Assembly: GCF_015207255.1 (NCBI RefSeq)
Contig: NZ_JADEXG010000046.1
Coordinates: 1-43,922, forward strand
Source: Vasconcelosia minhoensis LEGE 07310
GTDB taxonomy: Bacteria > Cyanobacteriota > Cyanobacteriia > Phormidesmidales > Phormidesmidaceae
Direction of reading: 5' to 3'
DNA: 43,922 nucleotides
Under the pieces are notes generated by a model. It had not been told where the DNA came from and did no database searches. It saw only the letters and a list, made by a program, of their open reading frames with translations. Position 1 is the first letter of the stretch. The number at the start of each line of letters is the position of its first letter. The position numbers were made by a program, and so were the translations under genes. This document shows positions 12,153 through 30,456 of this stretch, piece after piece.

Positions 12153-13730
12153 CTAGACGGACTGAACCGAGCCATTCCGCTGGGGAGCGGCGCTGGGTTT
12201 GGCGCCAAAATTCTCCGTCAGCAGATCCTTCAGCACCCCGGGCAGGTCCTCGCAGGCGATCCCCTTCATGACTCGACTGCCCAGCTCGGCGTCTTTGCCG
12301 ACTTTGCCACCCATATAGACATCGACCGCCTCGACCACGTCGCCACTTTTGCGGGTTTTGGTGCCCAGCAGGCCAATATCGGCCACCTGGGGCTGGCCGC
12401 AGGAGTTGGGGCAGCCCGTCCAGTGAATTCTCACCGGCTCGGGCAGGTCGAGTTCGGCATCAAGCTGCTGCGCGATCGCGAGTGCCCGCTGCTTGGTCTC
12501 GATGATGGCAAAGTTGCAGAACCGGGAGCCGGTGCAGGATACCAGTTTCCGCACCAGGGGCGTTGGCTCGATTGAGAACTTCTGGACCAGCGGCTCTTCC
12601 AGAAACGCCGCCAGCCGGGAGTCGGGGATGTTGGGGATAATGGCGTTTTGCTCGACCGTCAGCCGAATTTCGCCATTGCCGTAAACCTCCGCCAGGCGAG
12701 CCAGGTCAAACATATCTTCGGCCTGGAGGCGGCCCACCGGCACCAGTAGGCCCACATAGTTGAGTCCCGGCTGCTTTTGAGGATAAACGCCGATGTGGTC
12801 GCGCTTCGCTTCTTGGGTAATCTCATCCTCCGGCGCGGCAGGGGCCAAGGATTTACCAAACTCGGCCTCGACCGCCTCGCGGAACTTATCCATGCCCCAT
12901 TCTTCAATCAGCCACATCATCCGCGACTTCTGTCGATTGGCCCGCAGCCCGTGGTCTCGGTAAACAGTGAGAATAGCCCGACTGAGCTCCACCACGTCTT
13001 CATTCGGGGGCACCCAGGCATCGAGCGGTACCGCTGCGGCACAGCGCTTGGATGAAAAGAATCCGCCGACCAGCACGTTGAAGCCAATCTCGCCGTCTCG
13101 ATAGGCCGGAATAAAGGCGATGTCGTTGATCTCGGCGTGGATTGAATTGTCCCGACTGCCTTCGAGGGCAATGTTGAACTTGCGCGGCAGGTTAGTAAAC
13201 TCATAGTTGCCCTTGCCATTGCCGGTGATCATGTCCTGCACCATGATCCCCAGACCCTGGGTGTCGATCAGCTCTTCGGCATCGATCCCGGCGACGGGCG
13301 AGCCGGTAATGTTACGCACGTTATCCATGCCGGACTGCACCGAAGTCATCCCCGCCTGCTCTAGCCGTTCAAATATATCGGGTACGTCCTCTAGTCGCAC
13401 GCCGCGCAGCTGGATATTCTGGCGGGTGGTGATGTCGCCACTGCCGTCATCGCCGTAGCGCTGCACAATTCCGGCTAGAACTCGCATCTTATGGCTGGAA
13501 AGCACGCCGTTGGGCATCCGCATTCGCAGCATAAACTTGCCTGGCGTAACCGGGCGAAAAAAGACACCTAGCCATTTCAGCCGCTGGGTTAGGTCAGTCT
13601 CGTCAACCGCCTCCCAGCCCATCTCGGCAAACTTTTCAAGCTCGTCTCTAACGGCTAAACCGTCTTTTTCGTCCTTAAACCTTTCATACTTATTCTTTTT
13701 AGTTTTCGTATCGGTTGATGAACTAGCCAC
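12153..13730 (-). CDS. nirA: Ferredoxin-nitrite reductase
   Basis: This siroheme and [4Fe-4S] enzyme reduces nitrite to ammonium with six electrons from ferredoxin. The cluster/siroheme ligands are seen as CTGSRFC (C-x5-C, near residue 400) and CPNSC (C-x3-C, near 440). The nitrite/sulfite reductase ferredoxin-like repeats include GKFMLRMRMPNGVLSSHKMR and a QKQPGLNYVGLLVPVGRLQ stretch. An open frame begins at a TTG at 13745, but a GTG at 13730 with an AGG seven bases upstream is the more likely start, giving 525 residues. It heads the nirA-nrtP-narB cluster. A perfect NtcA site with a correctly spaced -10 box lies about 330 bases upstream, pointing toward it. Confidence 0.95.
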   Translation of the reverse strand: MASSSTDTKTKKNKYERFKDEKDGLAVRDELEKFAEMGWEAVDETDLTQRLKWLGVFFRPVTPGKFMLRMRMPNGVLSSHKMRVLAGIVQRYGDDGSGDITTRQNIQLRGVRLEDVPDIFERLEQAGMTSVQSGMDNVRNITGSPVAGIDAEELIDTQGLGIMVQDMITGNGKGNYEFTNLPRKFNIALEGSRDNSIHAEINDIAFIPAYRDGEIGFNVLVGGFFSSKRCAAAVPLDAWVPPNEDVVELSRAILTVYRDHGLRANRQKSRMMWLIEEWGMDKFREAVEAEFGKSLAPAAPEDEITQEAKRDHIGVYPQKQPGLNYVGLLVPVGRLQAEDMFDLARLAEVYGNGEIRLTVEQNAIIPNIPDSRLAAFLEEPLVQKFSIEPTPLVRKLVSCTGSRFCNFAIIETKQRALAIAQQLDAELDLPEPVRIHWTGCPNSCGQPQVADIGLLGTKTRKSGDVVEAVDVYMGGKVGKDAELGSRVMKGIACEDLPGVLKDLLTENFGAKPSAAPQRNGSVQSV

Positions 13731-13920
13731 AGCCTTACCTATCAAAATTTGACATTAACTAAAACTATAAAGCGATGCTTATTTTTTGCAATGCTCAATC
13801 TCTCTAAAAACAAGTTTTTATATTATTTGACAAAAACTAAATGACTCAACTAAACAACTGACAAAAGAAATTAAGACGTTAACTATTTTTGGTTTACTGA
13901 CGCTCAGCTTATTCAGCTTT

Positions 13921-13965
13921 AAAAAGAGGTAGGTGCAAACTTAAAAACATCCCTTTGCACCTACC
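13921..13965 (-). terminator. Terminator-like hairpin upstream of nirA
   Basis: Stem arms 13928-13939 and 13954-13965 are perfectly complementary over 12 bp. On the minus strand the stem is followed by CTC and five T residues (13925-13921). It faces the nirA direction and lies about 100 nt after a predicted NtcA-dependent start. Confidence 0.6.
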
Positions 13966-14022
13966 AAACACACCTATAAGGAACCGCTTCAGGAGTTTCT
14001 CAAACTCGCTTGCTGTCGAGTT
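13921..14022 (-). ncRNA. Predicted NtcA-driven small RNA or attenuated nirA leader
   Basis: The predicted transcript starts about seven bases after the TAATCT -10 box and runs about 100 nt. Its 5' half can form AACTCG-loop-CGAGTT or alternatively GAGTTT-GAG-AAACTC, which share bases and could be mutually exclusive. Its 3' end is the perfect 12-bp stem GGTAGGTGCAAA/TTTGCACCTACC with a 14-base loop, followed by CTCTTTTT on the minus strand. That fits either a free small RNA or a conditional terminator in a roughly 290-nt nirA leader. No match to a known RNA family is claimed. Confidence 0.45.
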
Positions 14023-14028
14023 GTGCCT

Positions 14029-14070
14029 AGATTAGGCAAGAATGCCAAGATGATTTGTATGCGTTGATAC
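14029..14070 (-). promoter_or_regulatory. NtcA-activated class II promoter
   Basis: GTA-N8-TAC is perfect at 14057-14070. On the minus strand exactly 22 bases separate it from TAATCT (14034-14029), matching the cyanobacterial NtcA class II layout of GTAN8TAC, 22-23 bases and TAN3T. Transcription should begin near 14022 and run toward nirA. The site itself is palindromic, but no equally good -10 box was found at that spacing on the plus strand. Confidence 0.8.
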
Positions 14071-14111
14071 GTTTTTTTGCCTTCGATACGTTTTTTGCAT
14101 AAATCCTATGC
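14066..14111. promoter_or_regulatory. Tandem repeats and dyad, possible NtcB operator
   Basis: GATACGTTTTTTTGC (14066-14080) is repeated as GATACGTTTTTTGC 19 bases on (14085-14098). It is followed by GCATA-AATCC-TATGC (14097-14111), a 5-bp dyad of the type LysR-family regulators often bind. The first repeat overlaps the NtcA half-site. NtcB, a LysR regulator of nirA, is encoded nearby. Binding by NtcB is inferred, not shown. Confidence 0.35.
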
Positions 14112-30277: not shown

Positions 30278-30456
30278 GGTTCGCCCTAGTAGTTAAGATT
30301 GCCGGATATATAATAATAGCACTAAAATTTCATTTATACTCAGCAGATCTTTAATGAAGATATCCAACCCCTCCGAATTTCCACGCTAAGCTTATAGGGA
30401 ACCGGATAGGTGTATTCGGGCATCAGGCCGTCTCTGTCTCTATTTCTAACGCTGCA

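Follow-up and report, generated by a model that had tools for sequence, protein, structure and literature searches.

The nitrite reductase gene nirA of Vasconcelosia minhoensis LEGE 07310 is very probably preceded by a conserved leader RNA that is driven by NtcA and terminated ahead of the gene. In the 43,922-nt stretch of DNA analysed here (the window), a single NtcA-type promoter precedes both a predicted RNA of ~102 nt and nirA (Table 1). What can be read from the sequence itself is the promoter consensus, the conservation of an RNA core, a terminator whose position is kept while its sequence changes, and the linkage to nirA. The earlier note on this DNA had proposed a unit under nitrogen control in which a terminated RNA of about 100 nt precedes nirA; the same NtcA-type unit is predicted here, and its core was also found in three other genera of the family. 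The evidence does not separate a small RNA from factor-controlled attenuation, and we lean towards a small RNA with read-through into nirA.

Table 1. Features of the nirA leader and of nirA, with positions in the window.
Feature	Position	Strand	Remark
NtcA-type box GTATCAACGCATAC	14057-14070	minus	exact GTAN8TAC; putative NtcA-binding site
-10 element TAATCT	14029-14034	minus	exactly 22 bases past the NtcA box
Start of transcription	~14022	minus	predicted from promoter spacing
Predicted short RNA, ~102 nt	13921-14022	minus	from the predicted start to the end of the T tract
Hairpin P1, AACTCG-N8-CGAGTT	14003-14022	minus	paired in 89.3% of alignment cells, 14 distinct relatives
Alternative 5' hairpin GAGTTT-GAG-AAACTC, bases shared with P1	13993-14007	minus	complete only in the window and L003
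Hairpin P2, GCGGUU-CCUUAU-AGGUGU	13970-13987	minus	70/70 cells paired; internal purine-purine mismatch
Terminator hairpin GGTAGGTGCAAA-N14-TTTGCACCTACC, 12 bp perfect, loop of 14	13928-13965	minus	-18.0 kcal/mol
Terminator T tract TCTTTTT	13921-13927	minus	directly 3' of the hairpin
Rest of the nirA leader	13731-13920	minus	transcribed only via read-through if no other promoter is used
nirA, ferredoxin-nitrite reductase	12153-13730	minus	NF007125, 886.5 bits (cut-off 594); GTG start at 13730 by alignment

Control of nirA by NtcA is established. The elements on which the earlier note had built its proposal, namely a GTAN8TAC box, a 22-base gap, TAATCT and a perfect 12-bp hairpin with a T run, are all present on the minus strand and in the places described. 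Taken by itself, GTAN8TAC is common and no better than chance (4 in the window, 2.31 expected), and the full form GTAN8TAC-N22-TAN3T is rarely reached by shuffled sequences. The full form was found in 112 of 160 nirA upstream regions, with a one-departure form in 39 more and no box in 9; among 800 mononucleotide shuffles, 3 contained the full form and 42 had at most one departure from it. All 16 carriers of the core described below have the full form, and none of them has an NtcA-type box between the terminator and nirA. The two sigma-70-like matches in 13731-13920 of the window are at chance level, and promoters of other types may lie there.

The minus strand of the window also encodes a NarK-type nitrate/nitrite transporter (TIGR00886, above the cut-off) and a molybdopterin enzyme similar to nitrate reductases, which stays below the cut-off of every named model. 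Divergent from nirA, on the plus strand, a HEAT-repeat protein (PF13646, 14347-15621) lies ahead of a LysR regulator and a glycosyl-transferase-3 protein, and from their context the latter two are probably the NtcB and CnaT partners of nirA. The motif TGCAN5TGCA, presumably of the NtcB type, stands no more than 80 bases ahead of the NtcA box in 21 of the 58 nirA regions of the family and in 16 of the 92 others (1 of 1160 and 2 of 1840 in the respective shuffle controls). All that the window shows there is a looser inverted repeat, GCATAGGATTTATGC, at 14066-14110 of the minus strand, read by eye. A direct repeat, GATACGTTTTTT, occurs twice, 19 bases apart, and overlaps the NtcA box of the window.

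Protein searches with nirA gave matches in all 63 genomes of the order, which belong to one family (f1). From these, 60 nirA loci were used; G010, whose gene lies at a contig start, G030, with a fragment, and G051, with a distant homologue only, were dropped. The outside control consisted of 100 genomes with nirA matches, those left out being mostly the lowest-scoring picocyanobacteria. In locus L060 nirA is broken and the distances are off, and L005 has just 248 bases upstream. Directly after the promoter, 16 loci have in common a 57-nt core, composed of hairpin P1 followed by GCGGUUCCUUAURRGYGU, with 31 of 68 alignment columns invariant. A covariance search in related genomes, which the earlier note had suggested as a check, gave strong matches with the core model (R1) in 16 of the 63 order genomes, one per genome and each upstream of nirA, at 68.9-90.3 bits with the next best at 20.7, scores that are not independent of the model since the same 16 sequences were used to build it. 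No further strong copy was found by R1 in the 63 genomes, 47 of which have no strong match, although the search filters may lose weak copies. The carriers are the window's own genome (genus g1), all eight genomes of g7, six of the seven of g11 and the one of g13, with none in the other ten genera.

Over 386 genomes drawn across the phylum, with three members of the window's family among those listed, only the window's own copy scored strongly (81.5 bits); a wider spread was discarded, the further matches being weak (24.2 bits at most). An exact search for the 18-base core pattern over species genomes returned 27 stretches, of which the 13 cyanobacterial ones all have nirA directly downstream on the same strand. 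Their carriers include Leptolyngbya sp. PCC 7375, Leptolyngbya sp. Heron Island J, Adonisia turfae, Leptothoe kymatousa and Phormidesmis priestleyi. The 14 matches in other bacteria are scattered, none beside nirA, and lie within the chance level estimated for 257 billion bases.

The degree of conservation peaks in the core. Among the eight g7 genomes, its mean pairwise identity is 100%. In the same genomes nirA (first 900 aligned bases) reaches 81.3%, the stretch between box and start 75.4%, the terminator region 82.3%, the stretch between terminator and nirA 60.7%, and the DNA ahead of the box 36.9%. In six g11 genomes the values are 88.9% for the core, 72.4% for nirA and 40.5% for the terminator, and over all 16 carriers they are 80.8% for the core and 70.4% for nirA. 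A search with R1 over 44 other loci of the family gave one weak P1-like match (14 bits), which lies in L017 beyond the other end of nirA and was taken as chance. The motif TTCCT/TCCCTT was seen in 11 of the 42 other leaders of the family and in 7 of 93 outside it. Given its shortness it was not counted, although it seems plausible in genus g9 (L011, L030, L060).

Counted from the first base of TTCCTTAT, the terminator stem starts 16-20 nt downstream in 15 of the 16 carriers; in L022 the predicted stem extends back into the core (7 nt). Its sequence varies, being GGTAGGTGCAAA in the window, CGGGGCAGAG in g7 and GGTAGGCGTA or GGCAAGGGCA in g11, while the position is kept. The T-rich tract that follows has eight T in g7 and is interrupted by C in g11 (e.g., ACTTTCTT) and g13, which makes termination less certain in g11. 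With the terminator defined as a hairpin of -15 kcal/mol or lower with a T run ending at +85 to +116, in leaders of at least 120 nt, it was detected in 17 of 49 family leaders versus 0 of 42 outside. L004 (g6) and L011 (g9), neither of them matched by the core model, are among these 17; L055 is not, its terminator having been placed by hand since its loop was too long for the scan. The simple terminator scan likewise missed the hairpin of the window, the loop of 14 being above its limit. Overall, the carriers have a stable stem and a T tract at a conserved position, as is typical of an intrinsic terminator. A terminator-like hairpin with the common loop CAACCCCTTA and no core-model match is present at a similar place in the nirA leaders L004 and L007 of g6, with a mismatched stem in L007. 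Six g7 leaders (L018, L021, L026, L031, L034 and L042) have a second hairpin with T-rich sequence just before nirA, at ~+118 to +173, with -9.2 to -13.2 kcal/mol.

Ahead of the terminator hairpin, the leader of the window reads AACTCGACAGCAAGCGAGTT from 14022 on the minus strand. When the first 135 bases of the leader were put through dinucleotide shuffles, 1 of 200 gave a hairpin and T run as strong as those of the window, and the same test in five other leaders gave 1, 6, 1, 2 and 2 of 200. The whole 105-nt fold is only mildly better than its shuffles, 16 of 200 of which equal it (z -1.67), and for this reason the argument rests on the terminator and the conservation. No short reading frame common to the relatives was found, and a small protein encoded by the short RNA was rejected on that ground. 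Rfam 15 at the gathering cut-off gave 0 matches for the window and seven relatives (L003, L004, L011, L018, L030, L038 and L058). Membership of a known RNA family was discarded on this result. A permissive scan of the window leader produced two hits below the threshold, one to a snoRNA family and one to a microRNA family, both taken as chance.

Within the core, the innermost pair of P1 is GC or AU among the relatives. P2 (also in the form GCGGUU-CCUUAU-AAGUGU) is paired in every cell; four of its five pairs vary on one side and none on both, so that a shuffle control cannot discriminate for this hairpin. One pair outside P2, between alignment columns 42 and 66, differs on both sides in 6 of 16 rows. 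A rival pairing inside the core, of columns 35-38 with 47-50, is also well kept (88.9% of cells), which means that more than one core fold is possible. The earlier note had regarded two 5' hairpins that share bases as the hallmark of a switching RNA. Both do exist in the window, but pairing of the second extends to 64.6% of cells and is complete, with six pairs, in the window and L003 alone, whereas P2, which had not been listed, is paired in 70 of 70 cells. The argument for a switching RNA is not supported, and the base-sharing 5' switch was rejected as not conserved.

The reading which we favour, and to which we give about an even chance, is that of an actuaton, a small RNA induced by NtcA with the mRNA of nirA produced by read-through; its start, termination and function are predicted from sequence. 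NtcA, presumably bound at the box, would turn on the nirA promoter when nitrogen is limiting. The leader would begin at ~14022 and reach the intrinsic terminator some 100 nt on, where many transcripts would end as a ~102-nt RNA carrying P1 at the 5' end and the terminator at the 3' end, with the CCUUAU loop of P2 exposed. Transcripts passing the terminator would become the nirA mRNA. The short RNA would be the conserved product, its core UUCCUUAURRGYGUG pairing with the ribosome-binding regions of other mRNAs, and one promoter would thereby yield both nirA and a small RNA, presumably stable and acting in trans.

Read-through is suggested by a natural deletion in a g11 relative (G053, locus L050, one draft genome). 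There, the promoter and the first core bases are kept, the rest of the core and the terminator are gone, and nirA follows directly; R1 found no core copy elsewhere in this genome. As the deletion leaves the promoter and then nirA, the gene seems to use the NtcA promoter, and this arrangement, together with the lack of an NtcA-type box past the terminator, indicates that nirA is probably reached by read-through in the carriers. A core identical throughout g7, above the identity of nirA, is more like an RNA which pairs with or is read by its sequence than a structure-only aptamer, and a CCUUAU loop that does not vary, next to UAAGYGUG, would suit a small RNA binding to ribosome sites. Together with the lack of an alternative pairing (see below), the identity favours action in trans. 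The strict linkage to nirA without any free-standing copy favours cis and fits a cis role equally well or better, and the 47 genomes without a strong match count against the small RNA.

Searches for targets gave a lead at most. Exact 12-base complements of the core occur at 20 places in the 63 genomes, 14 being the element itself and 6 lying beyond it, and 13-base complements with one mismatch at 33 places in 9 genomes (9 being the element) versus 78 for the reversed control; trans targets defined in either way were discarded, with no enrichment over the reversed control. One such one-mismatch complement, CTTATAGGGAACC, lies at 30391-30403 on the plus strand of the window, 54 bases before a 437-aa frame, probably by chance. 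A possible target is a gene of the homocysteine S-methyltransferase family (PF02574) in g7 (L278-L284), a lead that was picked post hoc among related homologues. In G016 this gene has CACACTTATAAGGAGCC just before its start, with a duplex with the core of -30.1, and the duplexes of the six other g7 homologues are -23.0, -23.0, -20.1, -15.0 (the weak one of L282), -17.7 and -20.1. In the g11 homologue the pairing is absent (-7.6). The background, from 2,995 random windows, has a median of -12.4 and a first percentile of -20.3. The window's genome gave no match for this gene. The pairing of the core with the start of nirA itself exceeds that of shuffles by more than one SD in 6 of 8 rows of g7; in the window, in L003 and in g11 it lies within one SD of them or is weaker.

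Attenuation in cis is the strongest competitor, possible and somewhat less probable. Here, a protein or small molecule that reports nitrate, nitrite or ammonium would bind P1/P2 and set the passage through the terminator, the short RNA being an aborted product. Such a role agrees with a core that is always placed before nirA, with the fixed 16-20-nt distance of the terminator in 15 of 16 carriers, with the stretch free of NtcA-type boxes from terminator to nirA, and with g11 terminator stems that can extend towards the 3' arm of P2 (L016, L022). It is opposed by the lack of an alternative pairing: the leader pairs with the 5' arm of its own terminator at -7.32 and with swapped arms at -7.09, and the corresponding values for the 3' arm are -6.66 and -6.3. 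The cognate arms being hardly better than swapped ones, an attenuator with a mutually exclusive antiterminator pairing was discarded. The base-sharing 5' hairpin, not being conserved, also tells against attenuation. Moreover, ANTAR-domain proteins reached the cut-off in 0 of 63 genomes, with one sub-threshold match in G052; the control genomes were silent too (0 of 14), which limits the weight of this null result. ANTAR control of the leader was set aside on this result. A more specific proposal, that the P1-P2 core is a new sensing RNA, dependent on a small molecule or on a protein other than ANTAR, which sets nirA read-through by nitrate, nitrite or ammonium, appears rather unlikely.

Still less probable is a mechanical element, in which the terminator trims basal nirA transcription or shields the gene from upstream and the core is a structure for RNA stability or ribosome standby, with neither signal nor targets. 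The relative G053 keeps nirA without core and terminator, and most genera of the family as well as the outside leaders lack them, in line with such a role; 57 nt identical in eight genomes, above both gene and promoter, are hard to explain in this way. A chance hairpin in a single leader, which 1-6 of 200 shuffles can match in strength, is highly improbable and is contradicted by the recurrence of core and terminator at the same place in four genera.

The nirA leader unit has counterparts among known systems. The nas-type leaders likewise place hairpins and a terminator before nitrate-assimilation genes, and antitermination there is exerted by the ANTAR proteins NasR or NasT. In contrast, the window's family has no ANTAR protein over the cut-off in 63 genomes (controls 0/14). 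ANTAR-bound hairpins have an A1/G4 hexaloop pattern, which is lacking in the P2 loop CCUUAU. The cyanobacterial glutamine riboswitch families (glnA and Downstream-peptide) are leader RNAs of nitrogen assimilation as well; they gave no match at the gathering score in the window and seven relatives, and none below it in the permissive scan of the window leader. In the actuatons of Synechocystis (such as Yfr2b/c, CsiR1 and SyR9), as described in the main text of PMC5386190, a small RNA gene is followed by a sense protein gene without its own start, whose mRNA arises by read-through. The nirA leader unit would have the same arrangement, but that main text does not include nirA, the core matches no Rfam family, and the RNA is a predicted one. 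NsiR4 is an NtcA-activated nitrogen-stress small RNA that acts on nitrogen metabolism through pairing with mRNAs (PMC9196836) and shares with the nirA leader unit a short RNA under an NtcA-type promoter. The passages on it in that paper do not put it ahead of nirA, and 'nirA' occurs 0 times in them. No report of an RNA layer in the nirA leader was found among the titles and abstract beginnings of the open-licence literature; PMC4734099 has no word that starts with 'nir', and passages of PMC10907346 have nothing on the nirA leader, with the words leader and UTR absent. The nirA leader RNA is probably a working regulatory RNA, so far undescribed, and a new RNA family of a known kind.

With its conserved core and its natural deletion in one relative, the system lends itself to direct tests in cultured strains, Leptolyngbya sp. 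PCC 7375 among them. A sensing core, if true, would give cyanobacteria a nitrogen switch at the RNA level on top of NtcA. If the leader RNA is real, a single promoter would provide nitrite reductase and, with it, either a small RNA for nitrogen stress or a valve acting on nirA, and this could help to explain how cells avoid the build-up of nitrite and couple the use of nitrate to other pathways.
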